From a virus, in the IMG/VR virus record IMGVR_UViG_3300010883_000460, positions 1 to 24,153 of that record: 24,153 bases of DNA; one strand, given 5' to 3'. Below are positions 5,162-24,153 of this stretch, one piece after another. Position 1 is the first letter of the stretch, and the number at the start of each line of letters is the position of its first letter. A program made the translations under genes and the position numbers. The notes under the pieces are model-generated. The model was not told the DNA's origin and made no database searches. It was given only the letters and a program-made list of their open reading frames with translations.

Positions 5162-5513
5162 CAGTAGTTTGTCCTTTATTTTTCCGCTCGTCACGGAGTT
5201 TGTTTTTCATGTAAATCTTTGCCAAACCGAAAGCGAATTCAATCAAAGCGTTTCCACCAAGACCTGACAGAATCGCAAACACGACTGCAAAGATTTCGTG
5301 TCCCGGTCCGAGATAGTATTGAATGAACAATCCAGCAGAGATTGAAAACAAACCACTGTTCAAGACAGCCGTCCAGAATGCTCTCCGGTCAAGATTAGCT
5401 CCGCTTCTCAACAGTGCTGCTACACCCGCCAAAGAACCAAATCCTCCAAAGATAAGACACTTCCATAGGATGTCTATGTTCTGTTCAGGCATTGTTACTA
5501 TTTCTGCTTTCAT
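5145..5513 (-). CDS. LydA-like phage holin (holin superfamily III type)
   Basis: A 122-aa membrane protein with three to four hydrophobic segments: about residues 17-37 (with a Gly-Gly-Phe-Gly start), 48-66, 73-86 and a glycine-rich LSGLGGNALIEFAFGL (82-97), followed by a highly charged C-terminal tail (KNKLRDERKNKG). The GFGSLAG...DRRAFW pattern and Gly-rich last helix resemble the LydA/HP1 class of phage holins, which form lesions in the inner membrane at the time of lysis. The ATG overlaps the stop of the large tail gene as ATGA, so it is part of the late operon. No endolysin with a familiar fold lies next to it. Substrate-independent pore role is inferred from family resemblance. Confidence 0.65.
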   Translation of the reverse strand: MKAEIVTMPEQNIDILWKCLIFGGFGSLAGVAALLRSGANLDRRAFWTAVLNSGLFSISAGLFIQYYLGPGHEIFAVVFAILSGLGGNALIEFAFGLAKIYMKNKLRDERKNKGQTTDDDSE

Positions 5514-7939: not shown

Positions 7940-8331
7940 GGTTTACCGTCCGTTGCATTACAATTTGCGTCAGTCAACATCCATTTGCCTTGATTGTCTT
8001 TGTAAGTCGCTTCGACAAATGTCCCAGATGAAATATCAGTGTCCCGTCGTGAGAAAACTTCCTGAGTTGTGCTGGTATCGGCTAAAGAACCGTCTGACGA
8101 ATCAACGATGTAAATGTTAACATCCGCTGACGGTTGCGAGGACCAAGCTAAATCAGGATCAGTCGATGCCGCCAAGTCTGCTGCAAGGTAACCAATGATG
8201 ACAGGCGGGACGTATTCAATTTGTTCTTCGCGTTCCTCAATAGGTGACGAACCACGCTTCCGGTTTTTTGCTTCTTTGACCAGTTGAACCAACTGAGCCA
8301 CGAAACCTGAATCAAGTTTGACGAATCCCAT
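7936..8331 (-). CDS. Tail-associated hypothetical protein, 131 aa
   Basis: The N-terminal 40 residues are helical and charged (FVAQLVQLVKEAKNRKRG), then an acidic stretch leads into a beta-rich domain with VIIGYLAADLAAST and FVEATYKDNQGKW segments. No homologous family is recognised. Its start codon shares one base with the upstream stop (TAATG) and its stop overlaps the 809-aa gene as ATGA, so it is translationally coupled on both sides. It may be an attachment piece or chaperone for the large tip protein. Confidence 0.55.
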   Translation of the reverse strand: MGFVKLDSGFVAQLVQLVKEAKNRKRGSSPIEEREEQIEYVPPVIIGYLAADLAASTDPDLAWSSQPSADVNIYIVDSSDGSLADTSTTQEVFSRRDTDISSGTFVEATYKDNQGKWMLTDANCNATDGKP

Positions 8332-8690
8332 TAGTCTTCCAGTACATCAATGTCCACGAGCGTTGAAGCAGTGTCTGAAATGAAAAACAAATCAGCAGTG
8401 GGATTGAGTCTGAAGCAGAAAGTTTCGCTTGGTTTGATTCGACCACCGTACACACCGGTTGAGTATCCCCACCGAACGATCGCGGTTGTGCTTGTGTTAC
8501 GCAAAACACAAACTCCCTCTGTCGTCAGTTCGCCAAACGTGGATACTGTCTTTTCTCCCGTACCAACCACAACTGTTGACGAAAACTTTCCAATTCCGGT
8601 TTTTGTGATGGTCTGTGAACCGGGACTGATGTTGATTGGAGTTTCATTCGCAAGGCTGGTTGAAATTGTAATGTTGAGTGAGATTGTCAT
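8331..8690 (-). CDS. Tail-associated beta-sandwich-like protein, 119 aa
   Basis: A beta-rich protein with Thr/Ser/Val-rich strands and turn motifs, without membrane segments. The ending KPSETFCFRLNPTADLFFISDTAST resembles small structural phage proteins with a jelly-roll or Ig-like fold, in which a Pro-Gly/Ser turn precedes a strand reaching a fluorophobic core. No specific family is claimed. TAAGGA lies six nt before the ATG, and its stop overlaps the next start. It is in the distal tail block and may be a tail-tip or decoration component. Confidence 0.55.
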   Translation of the reverse strand: MTISLNITISTSLANETPINISPGSQTITKTGIGKFSSTVVVGTGEKTVSTFGELTTEGVCVLRNTSTTAIVRWGYSTGVYGGRIKPSETFCFRLNPTADLFFISDTASTLVDIDVLED

Positions 8691-8699
8691 TGGTATTCC

Positions 8700-9617
8700 T
8701 TAGCTGAAAAATGGTGAAAGAACTGAAAAGTCCAAAGGGATTTCAGGTTCAACTTCGATTTTCAAAATGTCGTCGGAGTTTGTGATAGTAGTTTGAGACA
8801 TTGCAGATCCTGCAGACGTCAACGGGACTTCTTTCGAAACGCTGACACCGTTACCGTCTCTGATGGGATAGATTGCAAATCCACCAGGCTCAAGAATCGA
8901 CGGTAACCGTTCATAGCGACCAACATTTGGAATGTAACGCTTCCAGTCTTTTCTGAAGTGAAATTCAAACGTGAATTCTTTGAAGGTCACTCCGTTTCTG
9001 ACCTGTGCTTCAGACAGTCCGCCGAACTTATACCGTGCTTTCTTTTCTGCGACCGACAACCCGCGAAAACTGAAACCAGATTTATTGATTGAATCAGGCC
9101 AGGTGTCTATTGCAGCAATAGGGATATCGGACACGTTTTTTCTGATCTTGGCAATTGGTCGCGTACGGTCTTTTGAGAACGGCCTGACGGGTGTGAAGGC
9201 TGTGTTGACGATTATGTTGCCCTCTCCGTCAGTGTTGACAAGTTCTTCGTAACCTTCACCAACCCACGAGATCCTTGCTTGTTCCGCTAGTGGGTTTGTG
9301 TTTGTTGGTATGCCGAAACCCTTCTCCGTTGTGTAGTCAGCTTTCACCAACCAATACAGACCAAGCTTGCCTCCTGTGATGCTGTCTTTCGTCGGTCCTT
9401 TATTGTCGATCGGTTTGACGTTGAGACCTTGACATACTGCATCAGGATCTTCCCAGTGAAAGCTGCCGACTTGTGGCAACCCAACTGCAGAGCCTGCAAC
9501 ATATGCTGTGTTGTCTCTGTCAGTTAATACTTTCCACACATGCGTGTATGTTCTAACGCCGGACTGGTTGTTACCTTCCTGCATGTCTTCAACGTGACCA
9601 ATCAATCGTGATGGCAT
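8700..9617 (-). CDS. Putative distal tail / baseplate-hub protein, 305 aa
   Basis: This soluble, beta-rich protein is encoded directly after the tape measure, the usual place of the distal tail protein in siphoviruses. The N-terminal half is beta-strand rich (TYTHVWKVLTD, KLGLYWLVKADY); the C-terminal half contains FTFEFHFRKDWKRYIPNVG and a Pro/Gly-rich FAIYPIRDGNG segment. No hydrolase motif is evident. Its ATG shares one base with the tape-measure stop (TAATG). The assignment relies on position; sequence identity to a known distal tail family was not recognised. Confidence 0.5.
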   Translation of the reverse strand: MPSRLIGHVEDMQEGNNQSGVRTYTHVWKVLTDRDNTAYVAGSAVGLPQVGSFHWEDPDAVCQGLNVKPIDNKGPTKDSITGGKLGLYWLVKADYTTEKGFGIPTNTNPLAEQARISWVGEGYEELVNTDGEGNIIVNTAFTPVRPFSKDRTRPIAKIRKNVSDIPIAAIDTWPDSINKSGFSFRGLSVAEKKARYKFGGLSEAQVRNGVTFKEFTFEFHFRKDWKRYIPNVGRYERLPSILEPGGFAIYPIRDGNGVSVSKEVPLTSAGSAMSQTTITNSDDILKIEVEPEIPLDFSVLSPFFS

Positions 9618-11710
9618 TAGTTCACTGCTCCTTGTACTGGTACACCTTCAGTTGCATCAACAAGCCGTCCCAACAATGACGCGGACTCTTCAAGGTTGTC
9701 AGCGTTCTGAGCTGAGTTTGGATCAATACCAGCTTCAGCTAGTAATGCGTTTTTGGACTTGCCCCTGTTCAGTTCGTCTCTGATTCTGTCACGTTGTTCC
9801 TGTGCAGCTTTCAATTGTGATTTCGTCACATCAATGTCCCTCTGTCGATTGGCAACAAGTTGATTGTTCCCAGTGATCCCTGTTGCAGCAGACAAAGCAC
9901 CAAGCAACCCGCTGTGTTTGGTGATTCTTGACACTGCAATGGCTTCCTCAACCGATTTCAATCTTTTGTTTTCGCTTAACTGTCCTTGTTTGCCTGAAAT
10001 GTTTTTGTTGGATTTGTCGAGTTGAAACTGCAGGAACTTTCTTTTGTCTTCACCACTTAAACCGGCAGCAGTGGACATAACATCGTCACCACGTTTTTGG
10101 GTTTTCTTGTTGAGTTCATCGGTCAGATTTTTCGACCGTGCAAGTTCGTCATTTAAGTCACGAATTGCGGGATTCAGTTTGTAAATTGCGATGGACAGAA
10201 TACCAATCCCGGCAATAGCAGCACCTGCAAGACTTGCTTTCCATAACCACGTCACTGTGGTCAATGTTCGAAATGCACCAATCAGAGTTGGAATCACACT
10301 GACCATCGTACCGAGACCAAGAGCTAACGGACCAAACGCTGCAGCAGCACCAGCAGCAATCAGAAGGTAATCCTGGGTTTCATCGCTTAGGTCTGAAAAC
10401 CAATCGACAAGACCTGTTAGAACGTCTGTCAGACGGCTTAAAATCGGGACCAGCTTCTCTCCGATGTTCTCAGCTGCAACCTGCATTTTCGTTCTGAGTT
10501 GTGCCATCGCAAAACTTGCATTCGAAACACCTTCTGTTTGTGCTTCAAAAGCATCAGTCACCGCATTTGTTGGGTCCTTCATTGCCTCCAATTTTTGGGC
10601 GAACGTTTCAGCCTGTGAACCGGTCAACGCCAACACTGCTGTCAGTGCTTCAGATGAACCAAACATTTTCCCAAGTATATTTGTGTCTCCTTCAGCTTCA
10701 GCACCAAGCAACGCCAGACTGTCTTTCAATCCTGTTGAGTTGAAAACGGTTTGTCCAAGAGACTTGCCAACTTCCTCGGAGAACTTTGAAAGGTCTTTCA
10801 ACGCTAGTCCAAGTTCCTTCATTTTCTTTGTGTCGTTTTGTTTGGTCGCTTCAGCAAGTTCCATTCTTGCTTTCTTGATTCTTTCCTGTACTTCAAACCA
10901 TTGCTTGGAAAACTTCGTTTCAACCAGTTTTCCCTGTTCTTTTAGTTTGTTCGTGACTTGTCCTAATGCTTCCCCCATTTCTGCGGTTGGTTTCAACATT
11001 GCCTGGAACGCAGCTTTGGCCTGTGTCGTAACTTCAGCAGCGTTGCCGGTCACACCAGTCAAAGTTGCGAACGTTGCAAACAGTTCTTCCTGCGTTACAC
11101 CAAGGGCAGCCGCCATCGGTGTGACTTTGCCGATTGCTGCAGCAAGTTGTGGGAAGTCTGTCTGTCCAAGCTTCACTGTCATGAACGCAAGATCAGCAGC
11201 TTTCTGGACGGCAACTTCAGTTGTGTCCCCGTAACCTTTGGTGACAGCAGAAGTCAGAGCGATTGCCTGTTCCGTTGTGGCTAATCCTGCAGTCGCTGCC
11301 CGTGCATTGATGGCAAGAACACCAGACGCATCCGCCATGTCAAAACCAGCGGATACAACCTGATAAAGTCCACCAGCAATGTCACCAGTGGACTTTCCAG
11401 TTTCAACCGCGATCGACTGAACATCGTCACGGAACTTTGCAAGGTTCGTATCATCGACTCCAAGGCTTTGGACATTTGCCATTGCCTTGTTTAAGTCTTC
11501 CGAGAACTTTAGAGCGGCACCAGCAGCACCAACGATGGGAAGCGTGACTCCCACCGTGGCAGTTTTACCGATCTTCTTTAACTTCTTACCGACCTTCTCT
11601 GAAAACTTGCCTGTGATGCCTTCAGCATTAGACAACATTTCCTGAAATTCGCCAAGGTCTCCTGTTAGTCTGACGAGCAGATTCGCAATTTCAACCTGAC
11701 CCACTGCCAT
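9617..11710 (-). CDS. Tail tape measure protein, TP901 family
   Basis: A 697-aa protein that sets tail length and probably helps DNA pass the host membrane. Residues about 60-260 show the TP901 tape measure core (MANVQSLGVD, VSAGFDMADA, ARAATAGLATTEQAIALTSA, QAAFQAM-like repeats). A helical charged region with coiled-coil character follows (KKARMELAEATKQNDTKKMK), then a long hydrophobic stretch near residues 440-515 (LLIAAGAAAAFGPLALGLG and AAIAGIGILSIAIYKL) of the kind that inserts in membranes, and a charged helical C-terminus. AAGGAG lies ten nt before the ATG. The gene starts 20 nt inside the chaperone extension frame. At about 1.5 angstroms per residue, 697 aa would fit a tail around 100 nm; this is an estimate. 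Confidence 0.9.
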   Translation of the reverse strand: MAVGQVEIANLLVRLTGDLGEFQEMLSNAEGITGKFSEKVGKKLKKIGKTATVGVTLPIVGAAGAALKFSEDLNKAMANVQSLGVDDTNLAKFRDDVQSIAVETGKSTGDIAGGLYQVVSAGFDMADASGVLAINARAATAGLATTEQAIALTSAVTKGYGDTTEVAVQKAADLAFMTVKLGQTDFPQLAAAIGKVTPMAAALGVTQEELFATFATLTGVTGNAAEVTTQAKAAFQAMLKPTAEMGEALGQVTNKLKEQGKLVETKFSKQWFEVQERIKKARMELAEATKQNDTKKMKELGLALKDLSKFSEEVGKSLGQTVFNSTGLKDSLALLGAEAEGDTNILGKMFGSSEALTAVLALTGSQAETFAQKLEAMKDPTNAVTDAFEAQTEGVSNASFAMAQLRTKMQVAAENIGEKLVPILSRLTDVLTGLVDWFSDLSDETQDYLLIAAGAAAAFGPLALGLGTMVSVIPTLIGAFRTLTTVTWLWKASLAGAAIAGIGILSIAIYKLNPAIRDLNDELARSKNLTDELNKKTQKRGDDVMSTAAGLSGEDKRKFLQFQLDKSNKNISGKQGQLSENKRLKSVEEAIAVSRITKHSGLLGALSAATGITGNNQLVANRQRDIDVTKSQLKAAQEQRDRIRDELNRGKSKNALLAEAGIDPNSAQNADNLEESASLLGRLVDATEGVPVQGAVN

Positions 11711-13080: not shown

Positions 13081-13512
13081 TTACAGAGTAACCTGAGCGT
13101 TAATTGTGAACAGATTCAAACTGGACAACGGAGCAGAACCAATTGGAATGATGTTTGAAGTTCTCGACACACTAACAATTGTGTATGTCGTACCTGAAAC
13201 AATCACCGCAGTGTTTCTGATTTGTTGGTCCAGTGCGTCTCTGATTTCTTGTGGCTTCTTTGGTGTTGATGATACCGATCTAATACGAATTTGGATACCC
13301 AGCTTTTCAACAATCACTCCACTGATTTGCAACCGACCTTCAAGTGTCCCTTGCGTGTCAATTATCGTGATTACGTCATCGGGTTTGTCTGGTTCTTCTG
13401 TGACATATACCGGCCATTTGCCGTTTTCAGATGGATCAGTTCCAACTTTCAAATCGTTCAACGCCCGTGCAACCAAGTCAGCAGGGGATGGAAGTATTGT
13501 TGTTGCAACCAT
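13081..13512 (-). CDS. Tail terminator / minor capsid-type protein
   Basis: A 143-aa protein with a pattern typical of phage tail terminators: an N-terminal helix (PSPADLVARALNDLKVG), the segment KPDDVITIIDTQGT, beta strands (QISGVIVEKLGIQIRIRS), then a helix ending IRDALDQQIRN and final strands. The PDD...I..T.G motif occurs in the phage minor capsid family PF12691 and in related terminator proteins that close the tail tube before it joins the head. The ATG at 13512 overlaps the upstream stop (TGATG) and has AAGGA at good spacing; a TTG three bases upstream (13515) is less likely. Confidence 0.72.
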   Translation of the reverse strand: MVATTILPSPADLVARALNDLKVGTDPSENGKWPVYVTEEPDKPDDVITIIDTQGTLEGRLQISGVIVEKLGIQIRIRSVSSTPKKPQEIRDALDQQIRNTAVIVSGTTYTIVSVSRTSNIIPIGSAPLSSLNLFTINAQVTL

Positions 13513-13928
13513 CAAAATTTTTCCTTGTAGACTTTGGCCGATCCTTTTAAGTCACCTGTTTCCACTGGTGCAAGTTTTTGGGACGCTGCCATCAATCGGT
13601 TACCCGCAAGAACTAGAGCCTGGACAAGTGAAACTTTTTTCCCGTGTGCAATACCGTTCTCAAGTGTTCTGACAACCTGTGCTTTCAACTCACTTTGCAT
13701 TGTTCGTGCAGGTTCTTCAAGAAACTTTGGTTGACCGACTTCCCAATACACACCATGTGCGGGAGGCCGTCTTGGCAGCCCCTTCCATTTCATTTGCGTG
13801 TTTTCATGAACGTAAACCGCATACGCTACAGTGTATCCAACGGCAACCGAAACCTTCGTTGATGATCCATAAGCTGTCTGCAGTTTTCGCAGTGTTTGAT
13901 TCAGCTTTTTGAGTCCTTCGATTCTCAT
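13512..13928 (-). CDS. HK97 gp10-like tail completion protein
   Basis: A 138-aa protein with the gp10-type arrangement: an N-terminal helix (LKKLNQTLRKLQTAYG), a core VSVAVGYTVAYAVYVHENTQ with a His-Glu-Asn segment, a second conserved stretch VGQPKFLEEPAR, a long helix, and a C-terminal APVETGDLKGSAKV. The AxYVHE...PKFLEPA pattern is characteristic of this head-tail joining family. The true start is the ATG at 13928, whose base overlap with the upstream TGA (ATGA) fits the other junctions; a longer reading from 13988 would add an unlikely Trp/Phe/Leu-rich leader that is really the previous gene in another frame. Confidence 0.8.
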   Translation of the reverse strand: MRIEGLKKLNQTLRKLQTAYGSSTKVSVAVGYTVAYAVYVHENTQMKWKGLPRRPPAHGVYWEVGQPKFLEEPARTMQSELKAQVVRTLENGIAHGKKVSLVQALVLAGNRLMAASQKLAPVETGDLKGSAKVYKEKF

Positions 13929-14113
13929 CTGATCCCGTTCAACAACATGCACAAGAAAAAACCAACAGAACAACCAACACAAAACCAAGCAACTCGGACG
14001 GGCATCAGATACCGCTCAATTGAAAACGGCTTTTGTGGTTTGATTTCTTTTTCAGGAACTTTGTACGGTTCTTCGTCAGGAAAAATGTCATCCCACATGG
14101 TTCGTGTTGACAT
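13925..14113 (-). CDS. Small membrane protein, 62 aa
   Basis: Polar N-terminus of about 38 residues with acidic and Lys/Pro-rich segments (DDIFPDEEPYKVPEKEIKP), then one TM helix (about 41-58, VAWFCVGCSVGFFLCMLLNG, three Cys inside) and only two residues after it. A tail-anchored protein with N-in orientation is likely. The ATG at 14113 shares a base with the preceding stop (TAATG), and the stop overlaps the tail completion gene (ATGA). Starts further upstream would need a long read-through of the neighbour's coding region in another frame. Part of the membrane/secreted cassette; function unknown. Confidence 0.6.
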   Translation of the reverse strand: MSTRTMWDDIFPDEEPYKVPEKEIKPQKPFSIERYLMPVRVAWFCVGCSVGFFLCMLLNGIR

Positions 14114-14415
14114 TAGACCCATCCCTTTTTGTTGATGTAATGTTTCACCATGATTGTGATTGCCTGAATGATCAGACGTTGAAGAATGAACATCAACCAA
14201 CCACCTGACAACAGACCAATTCCAACCGCTCGTTTTCTTGTGTCTCGAATCAACTTTTGTCGCCAACGCTTTTCACTGATTCCCATCGGTATTTCGCGTG
14301 GAAGATCGTCGACAAAGTGTGCAATCGATTTGCATTTTGACAACGGAACTTTTTTATCCATTTCACCGTATAGAGCATGTCCGGCTTCCTCTGGACTGTC
14401 ACTTTTAATAATCAT
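14113..14415 (-). CDS. Membrane protein with C-terminal hydrophobic segments, 100 aa
   Basis: The first 60 residues are polar, with DSPEEAGHALYGEMDK and a basic EKRWRQKLIRDTRKR stretch next to the membrane; residues about 63-90 form one long or two short hydrophobic helices (AVGIGLLSGGWLMFILQ, LIIQAITIMV), followed by a basic tail KHYINKKG. The basic residues on both sides suggest a re-entrant hairpin or N-in/C-in topology. ATGA overlap with the upstream gene, TAATG overlap with the downstream one. No family recognised. It belongs to the eight-gene cassette between neck and tail genes. Confidence 0.6.
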   Translation of the reverse strand: MIIKSDSPEEAGHALYGEMDKKVPLSKCKSIAHFVDDLPREIPMGISEKRWRQKLIRDTRKRAVGIGLLSGGWLMFILQRLIIQAITIMVKHYINKKGWV

Positions 14416-14780
14416 GATTTTGGTACAACGTTGACGTCAATCGGACTGCTGTCCACATCAATAAAAATTGAATTGTCATTGATCCCAGCTTTAATTTTTG
14501 TCACGGTTGTCTTTAAGAATTTCCAGCTGACTCTTGCGGGCGGATCGAACACCAAACCGCCATCCATTGTCATTGTCTGAACACCGCCGAAATCAATTTC
14601 CAAATCGTCTTTCGAAAATGTCCCTGAACTCAGAATTGATTTCAATGCAATATAAGCTTCACTGTCGATTTCAATTTCTTTGTCCAGGAACGATTTCGAA
14701 ACCATCGACTTAGGCTCAACCGCAAGGCTGATGACCAAACCAATCAAAACCACTGCCACGATCGGGGACGGCAGTTTCAT
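14412..14780 (-). CDS. Secreted or membrane-anchored protein, 122 aa
   Basis: The ATG at 14780 overlaps the previous stop as ATGA; upstream ATGs at 14819 and 14792 lie in the neighbour and would put polar residues ahead of the hydrophobic segment. The N-terminus (MKLPSPIVAVVLIGLVISLA) is a signal peptide or signal anchor, without a lipobox. The rest is soluble and beta-rich with acidic turns (EIEIDSEAYIALKSIL, DDLEIDFGGVQTMTMDGG, NDNSIFIDVDSSP). The body would face the periplasm or outside. No known domain. Companion of the neighbouring secreted gene. Confidence 0.6.
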   Translation of the reverse strand: MKLPSPIVAVVLIGLVISLAVEPKSMVSKSFLDKEIEIDSEAYIALKSILSSGTFSKDDLEIDFGGVQTMTMDGGLVFDPPARVSWKFLKTTVTKIKAGINDNSIFIDVDSSPIDVNVVPKS

Positions 14781-15481
14781 CGATTGATCCATTGACGATG
14801 GCAACGACCATTCACGCACCGAGTCTGCCAGTAGCCCTCAGACCGCCTGACGTTGGCTGTGCCGCTGTTCGACCATTTAGAGGCACTCTGAGCCATCTGA
14901 GACGTTGAACGTCTTACAGAGGCTTTCTGGTGGTTCATACGACCTGTGCCATTGTATGATTTTCTCAGTTGTGCCATCGAATTGGTATGAATCGCACCGT
15001 GCAGCTTGCCAAGTTCGTTTTGACTTCTGCCGTCAAGATCAGCAATCTCAAATCCATGTGTTTCCAAGTGTGACTTGCCGACAGGTTGCCGATTGTGATA
15101 CCAGATTTGTCCACCGTAGTTGTCGACGATGAACTGCACAAAATCATTCTGTTCCTCAACAGCAACTTCAACCTGAATTTGTGGTTTCTGTTGAACTGGT
15201 TTTGGCGCAACTTCAACGGCAACTTCAGGCCCAATTTTTTGTTCTTTAACCGACTCCACATATTCCTCATTAGCTTCTGAAGAAAGAGCAATGATTGTAA
15301 AAGACAAGCGATCCAATTCGGCTTCCAGTCTGTTGATCTTTGCAACCAAATCAGCACCACATCTATCACACTTGCATTGCTCAACTTCGACTGTGTTTGA
15401 AACAGCTTCTTCCGGGGCTGGGGCCGATCCCATAATCAAAGAGATTAATCCAACACCAATAACCAAAACGTTCGGACTCAT
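14777..15481 (-). CDS. Putative exported Cys-motif protein, 234 aa
   Basis: It begins with a signal-peptide-like segment (MSPNVLVIGVGLISLIMGSA, residues 1-20). A C-x-C-x2-C motif (CKCDRCGADL) follows, then a heptad-like helix (AKINRLEAELDRLSFTIIAL), a Pro/Val/Gln-rich linker (VAPKPVQQKPQIQVEV), a compact domain with IWYHNRQPVGKSHL and HGF...LGKLHGAIH, a basic Ser-rich low-complexity region, and a C-terminal Cys pair CVNGRC. Such terminal Cys pairs are frequent in exported planctomycetal proteins, which is a recollection rather than a search result. The ATG is preceded by GATGGAGTAG. The mid-domain might bind a host surface component. Function unknown. Confidence 0.6.
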   Translation of the reverse strand: MSPNVLVIGVGLISLIMGSAPAPEEAVSNTVEVEQCKCDRCGADLVAKINRLEAELDRLSFTIIALSSEANEEYVESVKEQKIGPEVAVEVAPKPVQQKPQIQVEVAVEEQNDFVQFIVDNYGGQIWYHNRQPVGKSHLETHGFEIADLDGRSQNELGKLHGAIHTNSMAQLRKSYNGTGRMNHQKASVRRSTSQMAQSASKWSNSGTANVRRSEGYWQTRCVNGRCHRQWINR

Positions 15482-15493
15482 TTGTCTACTCCA

Positions 15494-16333
15494 TCAAAGT
15501 GAAAGACCGTCGGTGAATTCGTTGAAGGTAACTTTCCGAGGCTCAAGATTTTCCATGTCAGAAACGCCGATGAAAACCGTGAACTTATCACGAAACATTT
15601 TCTCGACTGATTTCTGATTCCACGTCGCCCAGCCCTTATCCCCCCAACGTTCATCCCAGCTGTTATTTATGTCAGCCTCCCCAGGCCGTTTCTTGGACAT
15701 CTGCGCACCACACAAAGCATGACCACCGCCGCGACCACCCTTGAAGTCGGTAACGTGTTCACGATTGACAGAACTGTTCCAGCGAATGCCAAGACTGATT
15801 GCTCCCAAACCAGCTTCAAGAAACGTTGTCAAACCGTCCCATGATTCAATGCGAATCTGTTTGCCAGCTTTAAACCGTGCAGCAGATGGCAGACATTGTT
15901 CCTTGTAGTGTGATGGTCTGCGATTGTCGTATTTCTTACCGGGATACTTCCAAAGGTCTTCGCGACAGATACCAGTATTCATCGCAAGTTTGACACCACC
16001 TGAAATCGTTGAACCGCGATCCCCTTTGATGCCGTCCAAGCGTTGCGTTTCGTAGTATCCCATTGCCCGTGAAAGTTCGAGCGACTTCTTTCCGATGGCA
16101 ATACAAGAACAGATTTCCAACGCGGTTGAAATTGCGTGTCCCTGACATGCTCCTTGTGACATTTGGTTTTCGGTTTTGATGATCTCCCGAAAGTCAAAAT
16201 CGTTCGCTTCGTAGTGTCCTCTCATTGCAAGAACTTCAGCTTCTCCCGGCAGTGAGTCAAGTACGCCGAAATCCTCTTCCTCAATGAGCCAACCACCCGC
16301 AAGCTTGAGATATTCTTTGAATGGATCACTCAT
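15494..16333 (-). CDS. Papain-like (C1 family) cysteine peptidase
   Basis: A 279-aa protein with the papain catalytic set in the right order. Q57 lies six residues before C63 in QMSQGACQGHA, matching the oxyanion Gln and nucleophile Cys of papain; H205 lies in GGGHALCGA; N224 lies in NNSWDERWGDKGWATW, matching the Asn-Ser-Trp-Gly-x-x-Trp-Gly block. A DRGSTISGG...GICREDLWKYP segment between them is also typical of C1 peptidases. There is no signal peptide and only about 56 residues ahead of the core, too short for a classical inhibitor propeptide. It overlaps the upstream membrane gene by 8 nt. It could act in lysis, virion maturation, or host-envelope processing; position does not decide. Confidence 0.85.
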   Translation of the reverse strand: MSDPFKEYLKLAGGWLIEEEDFGVLDSLPGEAEVLAMRGHYEANDFDFREIIKTENQMSQGACQGHAISTALEICSCIAIGKKSLELSRAMGYYETQRLDGIKGDRGSTISGGVKLAMNTGICREDLWKYPGKKYDNRRPSHYKEQCLPSAARFKAGKQIRIESWDGLTTFLEAGLGAISLGIRWNSSVNREHVTDFKGGRGGGHALCGAQMSKKRPGEADINNSWDERWGDKGWATWNQKSVEKMFRDKFTVFIGVSDMENLEPRKVTFNEFTDGLSL

Positions 16334-16676
16334 AACTGTTTGGTTTTTCAGTCTGTAGTCCCAATTTGCGTTCCCTTAAACGCTTTACAGCTTCGTCGGC
16401 TTTCTCGTTCCACCAAAGTGCAAACACTTCCTGTGTTGGTTCTTTGTGAGACTCTGACCGTGCAGCTGACAGCAACTCCTGGAACTTGTTTTTGGTTTCT
16501 TCAGTTCGTTCTGCCTCTTTCAATTCAAGAATGATCAGTGCAGTTGCTTCACGGTATCTGTCATCGGCTTTGTCGAGACTGTCAGCAGTACTAACAAAAC
16601 CCCCACCGTCAGCAGGGAAGAAAGCAATGACAGCAGCAACAACCAGTCCGATAATCGGTAAGGTGTTTTTATCCAT
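16326..16676 (-). CDS. Membrane-anchored helical protein, 116 aa
   Basis: The ATG at 16676 has GAGAGGG about nine nt upstream and is preferred to 16703. Residues 6-20 (LPIIGLVVAAVIAFF) form an N-terminal TM segment or signal, followed by ADGGG and a highly charged helical domain (KADDRYREATALIILELKEAERTEETKNKF... DEAVKRLRERK). N-in/C-out anchoring of a helical stalk is reminiscent of i-spanins, but no Cys/lipoprotein partner gene nested within it was found. It overlaps both neighbours by 8 nt and precedes the papain-like gene. Confidence 0.6.
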   Translation of the reverse strand: MDKNTLPIIGLVVAAVIAFFPADGGGFVSTADSLDKADDRYREATALIILELKEAERTEETKNKFQELLSAARSESHKEPTQEVFALWWNEKADEAVKRLRERKLGLQTEKPNSYE

Positions 16677-16974
16677 CAGTTTTTGCCCTCTCTTTGACTT
16701 CACCTAATCGCATCATTTCGGCTTTCACAATCTCCTGAGTGTTTTTTCCTGATGTTAAGTATTCAAGCTTAAGTTGAGCATTCGCAAACGGACAACTGGA
16801 AACCAGTTCATTGATCCGTTCGGTGAATTCATTCAACTTCTTTGGAGGGAGTTTCTTTGGTTTACTCAGTTCTTCAACATCACTGACCGTCGAATCAGTT
16901 TTCAAGTTGAAGTAATACCAACCAACTGAAACAACAGTGACAAGCACTGCAATCATTTGATTGGGAGCCATCAA
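16669..16974 (-). CDS. Membrane-anchored helical protein, 101 aa
   Basis: The N-terminus holds a TM helix (about residues 7-23, MIAVLVTVVSVGWYYFNL), then a Ser/Lys/Pro-rich hinge (SKPKKLPPKKLNEF) and a helical domain with one Cys (INELVSSCPFANAQLKLEYL). Like the next gene it has N-in/C-out design with a short extracytoplasmic domain. ATGA overlap with the upstream holin-like gene. No family recognised. Confidence 0.6.
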   Translation of the reverse strand: MMAPNQMIAVLVTVVSVGWYYFNLKTDSTVSDVEELSKPKKLPPKKLNEFTERINELVSSCPFANAQLKLEYLTSGKNTQEIVKAEMMRLGEVKERAKTDG

Positions 16975-17168
16975 GAAACTCCTTCAGTTACTTTTGCAGC
17001 TTCTTTGCCTGCGTCTGCAATACCCTGTCCAACGATGTACGTCATGATCAGTTGGAGGATTTCAGTTACACGGTCTTCAGCGACGCCAAATCTCTGAGAA
17101 AGAAAAGCAGCGATCATCCCGATGATCATTGCCAGAAACTTTTTTGACTTCAACAGGTCAGTCCACAT
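16971..17168 (-). CDS. Small holin-like membrane protein, 65 aa
   Basis: The protein starts with a basic-amphipathic stretch (MWTDLLKSKKF), a hydrophobic helix (LAMIIGMIAAFLSQRFGV), a short charged turn (AEDRVTEI) and a second helix LQLIMTYIVGQGIADAG with a polar C-terminal tail. This layout matches small phage membrane proteins often annotated as holins, but short proteins of this kind are also found in head regions with unknown roles. AGGAGCGAACAC precedes the ATG. It leads the membrane/secreted cassette, separated by 14 nt from the head-closure-like gene. Confidence 0.5.
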   Translation of the reverse strand: MWTDLLKSKKFLAMIIGMIAAFLSQRFGVAEDRVTEILQLIMTYIVGQGIADAGKEAAKVTEGVS

Positions 17169-17182
17169 GTGTTCGCTCCTGT

Positions 17183-17551
17183 TCAGGCGGTGATTGTTGG
17201 GAGTTCATCCTTGAACCTGATTAGTGCGGCGGTCCTTCTAAAGTATCGTCCCTTGATGTCGGGTGTCGAAGTGAACGAAATGATTTCAAACAGGTTTGTT
17301 GCGGAAGAATAAACTTCTGGAAGACCGACCCAAATGATTGAACCAACAACAACTTCCTGGTCCAAATCTCTAAGCATCGCATCAGCTGAAACTTCGTTCC
17401 CCTGTGCGTCACTTGTCTTGATTTTCTTATTCTCAATGCGACCGGTTATCAAAACACCTGCGAGCACTTTTATATTGGAGTAACGGTCTTTTCCTGCCGC
17501 TTCCCAATAGGTGAAATTGGTGGTTGCTCCGTGTGTTTCGATTTCAGCCAT
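17183..17551 (-). CDS. Putative head closure / neck protein, 122 aa
   Basis: A beta-rich protein at the third position after the capsid gene, where head closure proteins (SPP1 gp16-like) are normally found. Features: strands VLAGVLITGRIENKKI, the loop SDAQGNEVSADAMLRD, the hydrophobic QEVVVGSIIWVGLPEVYSS and NLFEIISFTSTPDIKGRYFRRTAAL. These suit the small beta barrel that seals the portal channel, with a flexible loop that becomes structured on binding the adaptor. Its ATG shares one base with the preceding stop (TAATG). Assigned by position and fold impression. Confidence 0.55.
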   Translation of the reverse strand: MAEIETHGATTNFTYWEAAGKDRYSNIKVLAGVLITGRIENKKIKTSDAQGNEVSADAMLRDLDQEVVVGSIIWVGLPEVYSSATNLFEIISFTSTPDIKGRYFRRTAALIRFKDELPTITA

Positions 17552-17976
17552 TAGTGGATATTCTGATTTGCTGATGAATATTCAGTTCCGCCCCAATTGA
17601 CCGTCGCTGTTTTGGACAATCCCTCTTTGGCTTCTTTATCGCGTTTCGCAAGCCAGTTAGTTTTGTCGAGAAGCATCGCGGTTTGACCGTGAAGCGTACT
17701 GGAAAGGAACATGTCATCTGAACCCCGGAAAGTACCTGAAGCATCCCCGGTTTTCTTTGTCTTTAACTGTGGATCACGAACCGCATAGAAATGAGCGGCA
17801 ATCCACACTTCAATTTGTGTCAACTCTGTTGCAGCCAGACAAGCTTCGTTAGCTGCGTCCACTGCCGCAAGTTGATCAACAAGAATGTTTGCAGCAGCAA
17901 TGAACGGGGTCAACGATATTGAACTAGCAACATCGATGATCCCCGTCACGTCTGCGTCAACAGCTCTAATCGCCAT
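17551..17976 (-). CDS. Putative head-tail adaptor protein, 141 aa
   Basis: A predominantly helical protein: an opening MAIRAVDADVTGIID, then LTPFIAAANILVDQLA, LAATELTQIEVWIAAHFYA and LHGQTAMLLDKTNWLA. The sequence IEVWIAAHFYAVRDP is typical of the helical adaptors that dock on the portal ring (gp6/gp15-like connectors), in which a Trp-Leu-Ala-Ala-His-Phe-like helix is common. The ATG at 17976 has GGGGGGA upstream and an 11-nt overlap with the preceding gene; an alternative upstream ATG at 18003 has no such site. Second gene after the capsid. Confidence 0.65.
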   Translation of the reverse strand: MAIRAVDADVTGIIDVASSISLTPFIAAANILVDQLAAVDAANEACLAATELTQIEVWIAAHFYAVRDPQLKTKKTGDASGTFRGSDDMFLSSTLHGQTAMLLDKTNWLAKRDKEAKEGLSKTATVNWGGTEYSSANQNIH

Positions 17977-18322
17977 CAACGTCCCCCCATGCTTCTTTGA
18001 CAATCACAAGTAATTCAGCTTTGGAAGATGCCTCAGAGATTTCCAAGTCATTTTCCGTCGCGAATTCTTTCAATTGCAGCACCGTCATTTTGTCGAAATT
18101 GGGGTTTCCACTTTCGTCTTGATCCGGTGCAGGAGTTACGTCAACGATTGAGTGTCCGTCATCAGTGATCCGTGCGAATTTGATTGCCCCGAAAGAATTG
18201 TGTTTGGAGAGATCTGACTTTGAGTCAATAACATCTCCAGCCATTTCATCTTTGCCATAGGTTTTACCACCTTCGCTGTGAACACCAATGAGAACACGAA
18301 ATCGTCCAAACGTTTTAGCCAT
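17966..18322 (-). CDS. Neck-region protein with HeH/LEM- or SAP-like C-terminus, 118 aa
   Basis: The first half is beta-rich and acidic (RFRVLIGVHSEGGKTYGKDEMAGDVIDS). The C-terminal third reads DKMTVLQLKEFATENDLEISEASSKAELLVIVKEAW, the helix-extended loop-helix pattern seen in HeH/LEM and SAP-type domains often found in phage proteins next to the capsid gene (MTVxQLKxxAxExxI...SKAELI). The first part matches the accessory N-terminal region such proteins have. TTGGAGCGACATA precedes the ATG. First gene after the capsid gene; may contact DNA or the capsid interior. Confidence 0.68.
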   Translation of the reverse strand: MAKTFGRFRVLIGVHSEGGKTYGKDEMAGDVIDSKSDLSKHNSFGAIKFARITDDGHSIVDVTPAPDQDESGNPNFDKMTVLQLKEFATENDLEISEASSKAELLVIVKEAWGDVDGD

Positions 18323-18340: not shown

Positions 18341-19570
18341 TTAGGATGTCGTGCCGTGAACAATACCGGTTGAACCACCGGGGAAGTCTTTGATGAAGGG
18401 CACTTGAATTCCCATCACCTTGAAGTTTGTTCGCATGCCACCAACAGACTCCCACTGAACAGTACTGATGTTCATCCCGTTCACGGCTTCGACAACGTCA
18501 GAAGTCATTTGAACAAGAATCACAACGTCGCCTGTCAGGTAATCAAGACGACGGACGCCGTTGATCCCATCGATGGCATTCAGTCGAGTTCGAACCGTGC
18601 CAGTTGGTGCAGCCAACCCTTGAGCGGCGGTTCCTGTAACGTAGTCGCCGTCCAACAGTGCGTCATATGCCGTTGACACATAACACATGAATGGACCGTA
18701 GAAGTTCTGAGCGTATGCAAGTTCACGCATTGCCAAAACTTCGTCAACGAACGTCGCAGGAACAAACGAAGCAGACGCGGTGACGTCAGTTTTCGTAATT
18801 CGCTGTCCGTGGTTGGTGTAACCTTTCACCTGTGGACGAGATCCATAGGTTGTGGCATCACCGAACGCTAAACCAGTCACAGTTCCGATCAAAGTTTTTT
18901 CGATCGTTTCTGCAACACGTCGGGCGGCAGCTTCAGCACGGATTGTACTCTGCGGACGACCGCTCTTTCGAGAGATCTGCAGGGCACGCTTGGAAAGCCA
19001 AAAGTCGCTGTGAGTGATCGGCAAAGGGAGACCCTTCAGCGTGTACTCACTTGCGTCTGTGCGGCCTTCAGTCAGTGCATCCATATCAACGACCGCTTCA
19101 CCGTCATCGGAAAGCGTTTCGTATTCAAGGACGGTACTCGACATGCCATCGAATCCGGAGATCGAATTCGCGGAAGACAAGTCAGCCCACGCACGAAGCC
19201 GGTTTCGAACAGCAAGTTGGACACGTCGGTCAAATCGAACCCACTGATCCTTTGACAAGGTGGTTGCATTGAAAACCGGCGATTCAACACCAGCATCCTG
19301 CAGGTCACGAACTTCAACAACTTCAGTCACTGGAAAGTCGACTGCAGTACCGTCAGAGTTACAGATCATTTCCCCTTTGGGATTCTTTCTATTCTCTGAT
19401 CGACCAGTGTTGACGCAACAAACCGGAATCAGTTTCTGGTCTGAAGCACGGGGAGCAAAATACGGTCGAAGCAGTCCGGTATCGAAATGGACACCATTGC
19501 CATTGTCGATATCCAAAGCCTGTGCCAAGTCTCCTTGGCCCTGACCGTTGATAATCATATCTGTCCACAT
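18341..19570 (-). CDS. Major capsid protein (HK97/encapsulin-type fold)
   Basis: A 409-aa shell protein. Indicators: the helix-rich middle PLPITHSDFWLSKRALQIS, followed by AEAAARRVAETIEKTLIG and LAFGD, is the spine-like helix and E-loop region seen in encapsulin-type (linocin M18) capsid proteins; GVRRLDYLTGDVVILVQMTSDVVEAVNG and GMRTNFKVMGIQVPFIKDFPG make up the A domain and closing P-domain strand, where phage capsids bind ions and end with I-x-V-P. The ATG at 19570 has AAAGGATTGAACACT upstream; a longer TTG reading from 19594 adds eight unlikely residues. It lies between decoration and neck genes, the conventional order. Confidence 0.92.
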   Translation of the reverse strand: MWTDMIINGQGQGDLAQALDIDNGNGVHFDTGLLRPYFAPRASDQKLIPVCCVNTGRSENRKNPKGEMICNSDGTAVDFPVTEVVEVRDLQDAGVESPVFNATTLSKDQWVRFDRRVQLAVRNRLRAWADLSSANSISGFDGMSSTVLEYETLSDDGEAVVDMDALTEGRTDASEYTLKGLPLPITHSDFWLSKRALQISRKSGRPQSTIRAEAAARRVAETIEKTLIGTVTGLAFGDATTYGSRPQVKGYTNHGQRITKTDVTASASFVPATFVDEVLAMRELAYAQNFYGPFMCYVSTAYDALLDGDYVTGTAAQGLAAPTGTVRTRLNAIDGINGVRRLDYLTGDVVILVQMTSDVVEAVNGMNISTVQWESVGGMRTNFKVMGIQVPFIKDFPGGSTGIVHGTTS

Positions 19571-19607
19571 AGTGTTCAATCCTTTCGGGATCAAAAAAAG
19601 AAGTTTG

Positions 19608-20075
19608 TTATACGCCTGAAACCATCATGTGATACAAGGCATCAGCTGCCGGATCACTTGCTGTTTCCATGCAGATGAATGGTTCCGCTTCAGGCGTGCC
19701 TGTGGTCAGAATCAATTCGCCAGTGCCGTCGTCCACTATCATTTTCTGACCGATGGCGAGGGCACCAGCGGAAGCCTGGACGAGGACATTCAGTTGTTCA
19801 CCAATAGCGGGAACATACATGAAGATTCGATCACCGGCAGCATATGCCGTGGAATTCGTTCCGCCGTTCAATTTCGATTCAATTGCAACGACAATCAGAT
19901 TCCGTTCACCGTCAGCAGCACCGTTGAAAACTTCCCAAGTGTACCGACCTTCAATTGGTTCAACAGCTGCATCCAGCTGCATGCAATGTCCAGGCAAAGC
20001 CACGCCTGTTGAAATACCTTCGAGAAAAATTCCCCGAGGATTTGAAGCCAAAATAATTGACTTGCCAAGTGCCAT
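19608..20075 (-). CDS. Putative capsid decoration protein, 155 aa
   Basis: A beta-rich, low-charge protein located between protease/scaffold and capsid genes. Phrases such as GDRIFMYVPAIGEQLNVLVQA, LAIGQKMIVDDGTGEL and TGTPEAEPFICMETAS match the trimeric decoration (head fibre or DUF2190-like) type, in which a barrel ends with a V(I/L)... strand and alanine-rich turn. The N-terminus ALGKSIILASNPRG might contact the capsid 3-fold axis. GGGAGATCTCAGTT precedes the ATG, consistent with high expression. Confidence 0.65.
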   Translation of the reverse strand: MALGKSIILASNPRGIFLEGISTGVALPGHCMQLDAAVEPIEGRYTWEVFNGAADGERNLIVVAIESKLNGGTNSTAYAAGDRIFMYVPAIGEQLNVLVQASAGALAIGQKMIVDDGTGELILTTGTPEAEPFICMETASDPAADALYHMMVSGV

Positions 20076-20111: not shown

Positions 20112-20726
20112 TTAGTCCCAGGACAGGTATGGAACTTCGAGTTTTTCAGACTCTGCAAAACGTGGTCCAGTGGCATTCGTCACCGGTACTGTTCGAGAAG
20201 CCCGACCAGCATACCGTGGAGTTGCTTCAACTTTTGCGGGAGCTGATCCTTTCAATTCACGAAGCGTTTCCAGTTCGTCAATTGATTTTGAATTCAGAAC
20301 CGCAGTCAGTGCTTCTTTCTTTTCGTCAGCAATGTCTTCCAAGAGACTGTTGACGATTTCAGCGTGCTGACGTTGTCGAGTCTGGCGAGCATACTCGATA
20401 TCTTCCCGCATTTCTGCAGGCAACTGTTCCAGACTGATTTCAGCCTTCGCAGCGTTTTCGATTTTCACTTCTTCTTCCTTCGGTTCTCCGGCAACCTTCT
20501 GTTCCACGGTGTACTTACCGTTCACAAAAGATACCTTGACGTGTTCGTCTTCAAATCCTTCCTGGATGCTGTTGACGAGTTCAGTATTCTTGTCTGAGGC
20601 TTCGATACCTTTCAGAATGTTTTTCAGTTTTGGGACTGTAAAATCATTCAGAATTTCGGAATCGTCCTCTGACCAGCAGTCACAACCGCTATTCACGATT
20701 GTGTCGACCAGTTCGTCTTTCTTCAT
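20112..20726 (-). CDS. Internal-start scaffold protein (same frame), 204 aa
   Basis: Within the protease gene, an ATG at 20726 (residue 267) is preceded by AAAAGGAAAACGCA, a strong ribosome binding site at good spacing. Translation from here would give just the helical acidic region (KKDELVDTIVNS... DELETLRELKG), which is what a free scaffold would need. Lambda makes Nu3 from within gene C in this way. The opening Met-Lys-Lys-Asp-Glu-Leu segment and the two Cys of GCDCWSEDD would be at the N-terminus of the shorter product. Confidence 0.6.
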   Translation of the reverse strand: MKKDELVDTIVNSGCDCWSEDDSEILNDFTVPKLKNILKGIEASDKNTELVNSIQEGFEDEHVKVSFVNGKYTVEQKVAGEPKEEEVKIENAAKAEISLEQLPAEMREDIEYARQTRQRQHAEIVNSLLEDIADEKKEALTAVLNSKSIDELETLRELKGSAPAKVEATPRYAGRASRTVPVTNATGPRFAESEKLEVPYLSWD

Positions 20727-21524
20727 TGCGTTTTCCTTTTCACTGGAGTTAAGAACTGGCCGGAATTTTACTTCACGGACCACTTCGACGGGCACACCAA
20801 CAAGCTTCACTTGATTGTCGGATTTGGTGTATTTTATTTTGAACCACATTCCGTCCCGCGAGTAGATTGCAGAACGTGAAAGAATGTCATCACTGCCAAC
20901 CCAGATTTCATCGTCATTTTCGTAGTTGCGGACCAACTGATTCAGAGCGGTTTGGATTGAACCGTGTGTCAGTTCATTCACAAGAATTCCACAACCCTGA
21001 TCAATGCTGCAGGCTGCAGGCTCGTCCAATAGGATTGCAAGGTGGTCCGGGTTGATGTCGGCAGCTGAGAAATTGTAAGAGTCCCCATTGTAGACTCCGT
21101 CAACTTCAATCAACCTTGCCTTGGATATGCCGGTACTGACAGGCAGTGCTTGCCCGTTGTAAATGCCTTCAAGAATCCGTTTGTCTTTTGTGTCAGCAGC
21201 TTTGATGTCGATCCAAGCTTCAGCTTCAAGGTCACCTTTTTCTGAAGTGGAAGAGTTTTGAATGACACCAACAGACTCACGCAACATCTTTGCAGTACGT
21301 GCAGAAACGTGTTTACCGTTTCTTTTCGGGTGTCCAAGAACGATAGGCATCCCGTTCCATAGTTCGGTGCTTTTTTCGTTCTCAACACTTGAATAGAAAA
21401 CAGGTCCACGAGAACCACTGAAAACTCCCTGCCGCATCATGCGAATAGGAGCAACCAGATACTCAGTTCCTGACACTGTTTCTGTTCGGGGTTTTGCTGT
21501 CAGTGCTGCGTTGACAAAAAACAA
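20112..21524 (-). CDS. DUF2213-type prohead protease fused to scaffold, 470 aa
   Basis: Residues about 20-185 carry the DUF2213 pattern: APIRMMRQGVFSG, MPIVLGHPKRNGKHVS with H65, ALPVSTGISKA with S130, YNFSAADINPDHLAIL and AACSIDQGCGILVNE. H65 and S130 are the best candidates for catalysis by analogy with capsid-maturation proteases. The C-terminal 200 residues form an acidic helical scaffold-like region. The start is a TTG at 21524: an in-frame stop lies two codons upstream, the first ATG is inside the conserved domain, and GGAGATTAAACC supplies a site at proper spacing. The protease trims the scaffold before packaging. An internal start may make the scaffold separately. Confidence 0.82.
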   Translation of the reverse strand: MFFVNAALTAKPRTETVSGTEYLVAPIRMMRQGVFSGSRGPVFYSSVENEKSTELWNGMPIVLGHPKRNGKHVSARTAKMLRESVGVIQNSSTSEKGDLEAEAWIDIKAADTKDKRILEGIYNGQALPVSTGISKARLIEVDGVYNGDSYNFSAADINPDHLAILLDEPAACSIDQGCGILVNELTHGSIQTALNQLVRNYENDDEIWVGSDDILSRSAIYSRDGMWFKIKYTKSDNQVKLVGVPVEVVREVKFRPVLNSSEKENAMKKDELVDTIVNSGCDCWSEDDSEILNDFTVPKLKNILKGIEASDKNTELVNSIQEGFEDEHVKVSFVNGKYTVEQKVAGEPKEEEVKIENAAKAEISLEQLPAEMREDIEYARQTRQRQHAEIVNSLLEDIADEKKEALTAVLNSKSIDELETLRELKGSAPAKVEATPRYAGRASRTVPVTNATGPRFAESEKLEVPYLSWD

Positions 21525-22580: not shown

Positions 22581-22769
22581 TTATTTTCTCTTTGTTTTGG
22601 TTTCACTATCCTTTTCAAACAGGATTCCATTATCCCCTTTGAACGGCTTAGAATGGTCATGTTCCCCGTAGTAGATTTCTTTTGGAATCCCTGAAGGAAA
22701 AGCAACACATCGATTCGCCGTTGAATAGTGTTTGCAACTCATACATTGCCATTTTACCAGTACAGTCAT
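22581..22769 (-). CDS. Conserved Cys-containing small protein, 62 aa
   Basis: The sequence CMSCKHYS...RCVAFPSGIPKEIYYGEHDHSKPFKGDNGILFE has the pattern C-x2-C-K-H-Y/F...C-x-A-F-P-x-G-I-P-x-E-I...G-x-x-x-H...G-D-N-G-I, which I recognise as a recurring small protein of unknown function near phage head genes and in bacterial islands. Three Cys and nearby His residues may bind a metal. The ATG overlaps the stop of the head gene as ATGA. Confidence 0.65.
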   Translation of the reverse strand: MTVLVKWQCMSCKHYSTANRCVAFPSGIPKEIYYGEHDHSKPFKGDNGILFEKDSETKTKRK

Positions 22770-24153
22770 AGTCCCAACTCTTTGAATAAACTGACCAACA
22801 ACTTTTCAGGACACGCTCCAGTTTGTCGGTACATTAGAAAACTCTCCGCGAAGTATTCAGCCCCATTTGTTGTTGCGTACTGTGAAACTTCAATTCCATT
22901 TCCAATCTCTGCAGCTTCGTCAAACATGTTGCTGTTAACGCCACTGAATTGAAGGGATTCCGCTTCTGTTCTGTAATTGTGTTTTGTTTTCAGCTTTGAA
23001 AGAATGGATTTCACTTCATCACTGTGTTTGTCAAATCCCAGCTGCAAGTCAGTCTGGAGAACGTGAGCGTATTCGTGTGTGATAGCCTCTTCCAGCTTCA
23101 CCGCTCTTGTGTTGTTCTTTGTCATTGCTCGTTTCTTTACAGCTGCGTCGGACAATCTAGGTTCATCCAAAGCTTTTTCAAGAGCCTCTTTGTATTTTGT
23201 GAGCCTTTCGATTTCATGGTCATCAAACTCTGGAATTAGATCATCAAGTTTTTTCGTCGTCTTTCTAACTTCATCTTGATATCCCTTCCGCACTTTTCTA
23301 ATTGACTTGCGTTCCTTCAAAATCGCGGCTTCAAGCTGGTCATCGAAGTTTCCTGCAATTGTGAATTTGGCTTCATTCGTTGAATGCCTCAACATCTGAA
23401 AACTACCGCCAGCAGATCCCTCTTCCATTTTTACGCCGACCAGTTCAAACGTTTTACCACTTTTCAAAGCGTTGGCTGATTCAAGGTCACTTAGTGTTTT
23501 GTTTATTCTGTTTGCCTGATCAACGGTAACGTTTTTCAAATCAACTTTCCCAACGCTTGTCATAGTCTTGGAAAAGTTTTCAGCTTCGTCTATTGTCTTT
23601 GCTGTTGAGAAAGTCACCGGACTCGGAACAGATTCAACCGCTTTAACTTTCTTCACAGTGTCGCCAACAATCTCTTCGATGGCTTTGAACTTCTTAGGGA
23701 AAAGTTGTTTTAATTCTTCACGTTGCATAACCCACATTTCCATAGCTTCTGCAAAGTCTTCAGCAGTGGATGCCGCTCCATAAGTTGTGACAGGTTTTTC
23801 AACAAGTTGAGCTTTACCATAATTGCTGGACGTTAGTGGTTTGGTTTGGTTCCACGTCTTTTTAGCTAAATTGTGTCCAGCTTCGTGAGAGAATGTTCCC
23901 ATTCCCATTGGTCTATTATACACAACAACAGAACCGTCTCCACCAGTTGCAGCGGATACAAATCCCGGCATGTTATATTCCTTCTCCCAGAACGAATCCT
24001 TATTGTTTCTCTGAGAAGAAAAGATAACCCGATCGGTTGAGTTCCATAGCTTGTCAGGAAAGTTTTCACGGTGGGTGACTGATTCTCTGATCGTTCCTGC
24101 CGCCCATTCTCTTCCCTGTTCTGTGTCAGGGTAAAAAAACTGAATCCCTTCAA
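22766..24153 (-). CDS. Head-associated protein with twin zincin-like motifs, 5' end outside window
   Basis: The frame is open to the right edge through 60 codons upstream of the ATG at 23971 (QFFYPDTEQGREWAAG and RVIFSSQRNNKDSFWEK are encoded), so the true start lies beyond the window. The visible 461 residues contain FSHEAGHNLA (HExxH at 23873-23887) followed about 40 residues later by EDFAEAMEMW, and later ITHEYAHVLQ (HExxH at 23063-23077) followed about 70 residues on by AEYFAESFLMY. This is the zinc-ligand layout of anthrax-lethal-factor-like metalloproteases (ATLF-like). A charged helical region lies between them. Head proteins of MuF type often carry such C-terminal toxin domains. Whether both sites bind zinc is unknown. 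Confidence 0.75.
   Translation of the reverse strand, partial: EGIQFFYPDTEQGREWAAGTIRESVTHRENFPDKLWNSTDRVIFSSQRNNKDSFWEKEYNMPGFVSAATGGDGSVVVYNRPMGMGTFSHEAGHNLAKKTWNQTKPLTSSNYGKAQLVEKPVTTYGAASTAEDFAEAMEMWVMQREELKQLFPKKFKAIEEIVGDTVKKVKAVESVPSPVTFSTAKTIDEAENFSKTMTSVGKVDLKNVTVDQANRINKTLSDLESANALKSGKTFELVGVKMEEGSAGGSFQMLRHSTNEAKFTIAGNFDDQLEAAILKERKSIRKVRKGYQDEVRKTTKKLDDLIPEFDDHEIERLTKYKEALEKALDEPRLSDAAVKKRAMTKNNTRAVKLEEAITHEYAHVLQTDLQLGFDKHSDEVKSILSKLKTKHNYRTEAESLQFSGVNSNMFDEAAEIGNGIEVSQYATTNGAEYFAESFLMYRQTGACPEKLLVSLFKELGL

Follow-up and report, generated by a model that had tools for sequence, protein, structure and literature searches.

The stretch analysed here (the window) is the IMG/VR virus record IMGVR_UViG_3300010883_000460, whose 24,153 bases probably represent part of a tailed phage genome; several of its gene names were assigned by position only. 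Between a head-closure-like neck gene and a gp10-like tail completion gene, eight tightly packed open reading frames (ORFs; g1 to g8) run on the minus strand from 17168 to 13925 and include a papain-like peptidase (g4) (Table 1). The best available reading of this cassette, at about even odds, is that of a coherent lysis or envelope module. Specifically, we assign a probability of roughly 0.48 to a late lysis or envelope-breaching module at a P2-like neck position, in which a cytoplasmic protease would be released by a holin. What is new is a module centred on a protease within a neck cargo zone; the site itself is less unusual than initially thought.

The nearest relative retains the complete cassette. 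This sister phage is represented by two contigs (L003 and L002/L015) from the same metagenome that seem to flank a single break within the papain gene; it carries all eight genes in the same order and place as the window. Gene starts were corrected using the DNA and the sister phage. Between the two phages, silent sites are saturated (proportion of synonymous differences, pS, 0.78–0.90), whereas the proteins are conserved (33–84% identity; nonsynonymous divergence, dN, 0.14–0.86); these features, with the shared order and place, indicate that the eight ORFs are real genes. At 81–84% identity, the papain-like protein is better conserved than the capsid protein (76%), with the remaining cassette proteins at 33–57%. 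Among the relatives, g2, g3, g6, g7, and g8 were found in the sister phage alone. All but one of the seven internal junctions are overlaps of 1–8 nucleotides (nt); the exception is g4/g5, where a 12-nt gap contains GGAG. The closure-like gene and g1 are spaced by 14 nt, and the end of g8 overlaps the start of the gp10-like gene (ATGA). Hydropathy located hydrophobic segments at the N-terminus of g1, g2, g3, g5, and g6 and at the C-terminus of g7 and g8, with none strong in g4. The initial annotation, made from the window alone, had described eight nearly all overlapping genes that split the two neck genes, with anchors or signals at these termini, and this description holds.

The same layout makes it very improbable that these are moron-like lysogenic conversion genes, expressed independently from a prophage. 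Morons are suggested by the variable insertion among morphogenesis genes and by the membrane-bound nature of some products, but the cassette genes overlap one another and the gp10-like gene, and promoter-like sites are no commoner than in shuffled sequence (5 versus 6.4 by consensus scan). A terminator scan found none clearly closing the cassette. Two scans of bacterial genomes, one with the capsid alignment and one with g4, returned no relatives of the clade and hence no link to a prophage or host.

Several lines of evidence identify g4 as a peptidase. It scored below the Pfam cut-off for Peptidase_C1 (E 0.026; 15 bits against 20.7), yet its matches to papain-family structures in the PDB were significant, and we therefore call it papain-like: the single sequence matched xylellain (3ois, 8.5e-5) and a four-row profile matched falcipain (falcipain-2 6jw9, 3.5e-7). 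A further match was to PHROG 16701, a peptidase family (3.3e-5). In annotated phage records, neither g1 nor g4 had a match. The likeness to family C1 covers the catalytic core, with Gln, Cys, His, and Asn in order; the oxyanion and catalytic residues Q57, C63, H205, and N224 lie in the expected family contexts, and the sister phage retains Q and C (L003) and H and N (L015). These residues and matches uphold the peptidase call of the initial annotation. Unlike the family C1 proteins compared, g4 is phage-encoded, lacks a signal peptide, and is situated within a membrane-protein operon. An AlphaFold2 model from a seven-row alignment was too low in confidence for use (predicted local distance difference test, pLDDT, 31). 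PF00112 alone misses most papain-like members, matching 3 of 50 records. In the relative L072, a 660-residue papain-like gene (15864-17846) is interrupted by an intein that has a LAGLIDADG-like domain and starts at the expected active-site cysteine.

The gene following g4 recurs beside it in other phages. Relatives of g5 are found directly 3' of the papain gene in the window, L015, L082, and L106; the pair in L082 sits at another junction, and L106, in which no capsid of this clade was detected, shows the pair and not the neck position. The coherence proposed earlier is thus borne out by eight overlapping genes that are conserved together and by a papain–g5 pair that recurs adjacent rather than scattering independently. 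A regular expression for the g5 histidine motif matched 5 of 8,972 ORFs, each directly following a papain or matrixin gene; since the motif was composed after these sequences had been viewed, this is an association and not an independent test. Exported proteins with a similar motif also occur in L026 and L053. A profile comparison of g5 with the thioredoxin-type protein of these two loci did not support homology (hhalign probability only 5.8%, not significant), and the resemblance is kept at motif level.

The holin match of g1, together with a g4 that has its catalytic residues and lacks a signal peptide, favours lysis. In the mechanism that we infer, g4 would build up in the cytoplasm while being translated alongside the neck genes, and g1, perhaps with g7 and g8, would open the inner membrane. 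The freed g4, with the N-anchored or exported g2, g3, g5, and g6, would then attack envelope proteins until the cell bursts, such that a protease would substitute for the usual peptidoglycan hydrolase. Release through the holin, an envelope substrate, and a requirement for lysis would all be part of this scheme. A weak hint of an Rz-like spanin was obtained for g2 (PHROG Rz-like, E 0.075 only).

Phage P2 (NC_001895) provides a precedent for the position, which also favours lysis. Its lysis cassette, comprising the holin Y, the endolysin K, and lysA, lysB, and lysC, separates the head-tail adaptor L (and X) from the tail-completion genes R and S. The window shows a placement of this type (17551-13512, compared with 6000-9367 of NC_001895), analogous in position only, and likewise combines a putative holin, a hydrolase, and membrane-anchored accessory genes that partly overlap. 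It differs from P2 in having eight genes and a papain-like protease instead of a peptidoglycan enzyme; the likeness shown is one of position.

We searched 37 records (window, sister, and relatives) for five lysin families, i.e., Amidase_2, SLT, Phage_lysozyme, M15_4, and NLPC_P60. SLT, Phage_lysozyme, and M15_4 were absent from all 37; Amidase_2 was found in one, within the neck zone of L087, and NLPC_P60 in one, outside the zone and close to one end of G055. None of the five was present in the window, other lysin families not having been searched. This near-absence favours the lysis reading of the cassette. Trypsin_2 was found in 11 of the 37 records, in nine within the zone (positions compared manually). 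Pfam and PHROG gave no lysin match among the eight cassette genes, and when 114 proteins, the majority of them from two relatives of some 60 kb, were scanned with Pfam, none of the 25 entries listed out of 67 was a lysin family. As judged from its proteins, the cassette therefore lacks a recognisable endolysin of the canonical holin-endolysin-spanin type; it may nonetheless function like a lysis cassette. A literature search, limited in reach, found nothing on papain-type phage lysis modules among the titles listed, which is not proof of their absence.

Comparison with relatives showed that the cassette occupies a site of frequent insertion. An alignment search with the capsid protein recovered 76 loci, of which 37 non-redundant loci were counted using profiles for each neck gene. 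The closure-like gene gave no database match of its own but belongs to one family with the gene adjoining gp10 in most relatives. In agreement with the expectation that the closure and gp10 genes normally lie close together, they are adjacent in 30 of 37 loci and split by 1.7–7.1 kb in the other seven. Inserts, defined as more than 900 bp within a complete capsid-to-connector stretch, are present in 24 of 29 complete necks (1.7–7.3 kb). They lie between rho118 and adap150 (n = 10), capsid and rho118 (n = 7), closure and gp10 (n = 7), gp10 and connector (n = 5), or adap150 and closure (n = 1), with some loci having two, and their position shifts repeatedly on the capsid tree, in which many forks are weak. 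As most necks carry inserts and the position keeps changing, we regard the region as a cargo zone. The place had been called unusual; this is only partly right. Although the closure/gp10 junction is uninterrupted in the majority of relatives, a comparable insert lies one or two genes from it in most of these, and P2 has lysis genes at the analogous place. This distribution also makes it very improbable, and the least probable of the explanations considered, that the products are virion proteins, i.e., neck or injected particle parts, as location between neck genes might suggest: 30 of the 37 loci lack an insert at the closure/gp10 junction, content differs elsewhere, the cassette proteins have export signals and membrane segments, and a separate head-protease-like gene is present.

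The content of the zone supports a role at the envelope. In closed inserts, 92 of 208 genes (44%) look exported or membrane-bound, compared with 180 of 1,074 other genes (17%; p 1e-16, by a simple hydropathy rule on our own gene calls, with relatives that are not independent samples). Pfam searches of 129 zone proteins detected Trypsin_2 (8), Cytochrome_CBB3 (5), Trypsin (4), Lipase_3 (3), SNase (2), and papain (2), with single matches to subtilase, matrixin, astacin, C92, CAP, PG_binding_1, DUF1353, GTA_holin_3TM, and PSCyt1 (1.2e-4). The hydrolase is swapped between loci: papain above the Pfam cut-off in L071, papain-like in L082, weakly so in L048, Lipase_3 in L055, a lipase in L042, C92 in L029, and, in L087, the amidase, whose insert also holds a lipoprotein-like gene and one for a protein resembling a three-segment holin. 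Matrixin inserts (L026, L053, L037, and L024) follow the closure gene as in the window and likewise combine small membrane proteins, an exported protein, and a peptidase. They differ in that the peptidase is a metallopeptidase, accompanied in L026 by a peptidoglycan-binding domain (PG_binding_1) and without an evident signal peptide, and in that the exported partner has a thioredoxin-like part. In L053, a strong holin (6.8e-18), an exported protein, a matrixin-like peptidase, and an exported thioredoxin-like protein follow the closure gene; this insert is the window's plan with another peptidase. The holins, amidase, C92, and matrixin with a peptidoglycan-binding domain, together with the enrichment in membrane and export signals, favour the earlier proposal of a lysis or host-envelope module; they fall short of proving it.

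The main competing explanation is that the cassette is exported host-envelope cargo not concerned with lysis: late secreted or anchored proteins would remodel the host surface or periplasm, for example by processing envelope proteins, blocking superinfection, or redox work, and the neck zone would be a tolerant site. We consider this possible but not probable. The variable contents of the zone, including thioredoxin-like and CxxCH proteins, lipases, and trypsins with apparent signal peptides, fit it, as does the changing position of inserts along the capsid tree. However, g4 without a signal peptide would need an exit route, the recurring companions are holin-like, and several zone enzymes are of amidase, C92, or peptidoglycan-binding type.

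Other observations weigh against lysis by a released protease. The window and most relatives are fragments searched for five lysin families, and thus an ordinary endolysin could lie elsewhere; within the cassette there is no peptidoglycan hydrolase match, and a papain fold is no sign of wall activity. The holin match of g1, a short protein, is weak. Relatives of g1 occur in L003, L030, L041, and L085; in the last three they stand alone, upstream of the head protease and away from hydrolases. The zone cargo includes c-type-cytochrome-like proteins, nucleases, and lipases, which are not lysis-gene-like, and five complete necks have no insert.

Extended to the whole clade, the lysis reading would be that tailed phages, perhaps infecting Planctomycetota, break their hosts by holin-released proteases or lipases that replace peptidoglycan hydrolases and are swapped as modules in the capsid-tail cargo zone; we regard this as rather unlikely. 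The host phylum is hinted at by the PSCyt1 match, a Planctomycete cytochrome family, and by the stretch LEPLEERNLLS in L033, which we take to be typical of planctomycete exported proteins. Literature searches of limited reach found no work on planctomycete phages. If the lysis reading of the cassette is true, a protease module can stand in for a wall lysin when phages attack the envelope; the eight genes then provide a defined test case, and the neck zone is where unknown proteins that act in lysis or on the envelope could be sought. Even as mere cargo, the zone would yield many exported phage enzymes, among them apparent c-type cytochromes.

Table 1. Locations of the window's genes and of paired CxxCH genes in relatives (aa, amino acids).
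Feature	Position	Strand	Description
Head-protease-like gene	20112-21524	minus	
Decoration gene	19608-20075	minus	
Major capsid protein	18341-19594	minus	PHROG 771
rho118	17966-18322	minus	next gene after major capsid protein
adap150	17551-18003	minus	between rho118 and closure-like gene
Head-closure-like neck gene	17183-17551	minus	upstream flank of cassette; family kept in position in relatives
g1	16971..17168	minus	65 aa; putative holin-like small membrane protein; PHROG 9987 holin, E 1e-5
g2	16669..16971	minus	100 aa; N-terminal hydrophobic segment, then helical-looking tail; 52% identical in L003, dN 0.44
g3	16326..16676	minus	116 aa; N-anchored (hydropathy); 35% identical in L003
g4	15494..16333	minus	279 aa; papain-like (C1-type) cysteine peptidase without signal peptide
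g5	14777..15481	minus	234 aa; exported or N-anchored; histidine pairs SHLETHG, LHGAIH; C-terminal part with CVNGRC-basic tail (CxxGxC-basic)
g6	14412..14780	minus	122 aa; N-terminal signal or anchor; 46% identical in L015
g7	14113..14415	minus	100 aa; C-terminal membrane segment (hydropathy); 41% identical in L015
g8	13925..14113	minus	62 aa; C-terminal membrane segment (hydropathy); counterpart L015 1754-1915, same place
gp10-like tail completion gene	13512-13928	minus	downstream flank; PHROG 5, E 4e-4; Pfam HK97-gp10_like, 0.009
Connector	13081-13515	minus	PHROG 2595; after gp10-like gene
Tube-like gene		minus	between connector and tape measure
Tape measure	9617-11710	minus	
CxxCH protein pair	L039:5621-8223		
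CxxCH protein pair	L050:11455-13640		
CxxCH protein pair	L057:12076-15206		
CxxCH protein pair	L058:6232-9249		
CxxCH protein pair	L063:9763-12261		
CxxCH protein pair	L072:17858-20163		
CxxCH protein pair	L077:4072-7005		

Beyond its signal or anchor, g6 is beta-rich in a low-confidence AlphaFold2 model (single sequence, pLDDT 42). The second holin that the initial annotation placed at the far end of the operon was not confirmed: the protein at 5145-5513, with its three hydrophobic segments, matched no PHROG at E 0.1. Proteins of 68–76 aa with two hydrophobic segments, alike by eye only, are possible second holins in L003 (2500-2718), L053 (12730-12936), L085 (5740-5970), and L106 (6907-7125).

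In at least seven relatives, the neck inserts hold adjacent pairs of exported-looking proteins with one CxxCH each, which are apparent phage-encoded c-type cytochromes. A direct scan of an eight-locus cluster of exported proteins of 500–690 aa with Pfam cytochrome models gave no match, though its members carry CxxCH. The sister phage encodes an SNase-like protein with an apparent signal peptide in its early region (L015:10772-11311), and other relatives have SNase genes within their neck inserts. The neck inserts of the most distant relatives (L087:11466-13967, L088:9164-13294, and L092:3265-8607) instead contain apparent sugar- or surface-modification genes, which by eye resemble those for glycosyltransferases and acyltransferases.

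The capsid relative in Brevundimonas phage vB_BpoS-StAshley carries the annotation major capsid protein (31% identity over 72%). Gene order there is similar to that of the window, but the genes following the capsid gene are contiguous, without an insert. At the other end of the window, a large ORF (22766-24151), cut by the window end, contains two HExxH-type motifs and gave a Pfam ATLF match near the cut-off with weaker zinc-peptidase matches; because the corresponding position in L003 is occupied by a head-morphogenesis-like gene, this ORF may encode a MuF-like protein with a zincin tail. Finally, the relatives of about 60 kb, G010 and G026 (L096-L103), have matches to 5-hydroxymethyldeoxyuridine (5-hmdU) DNA kinase, amino acid:DNA transferase, and thymidylate synthase families, which suggests that their DNA contains hypermodified thymine.

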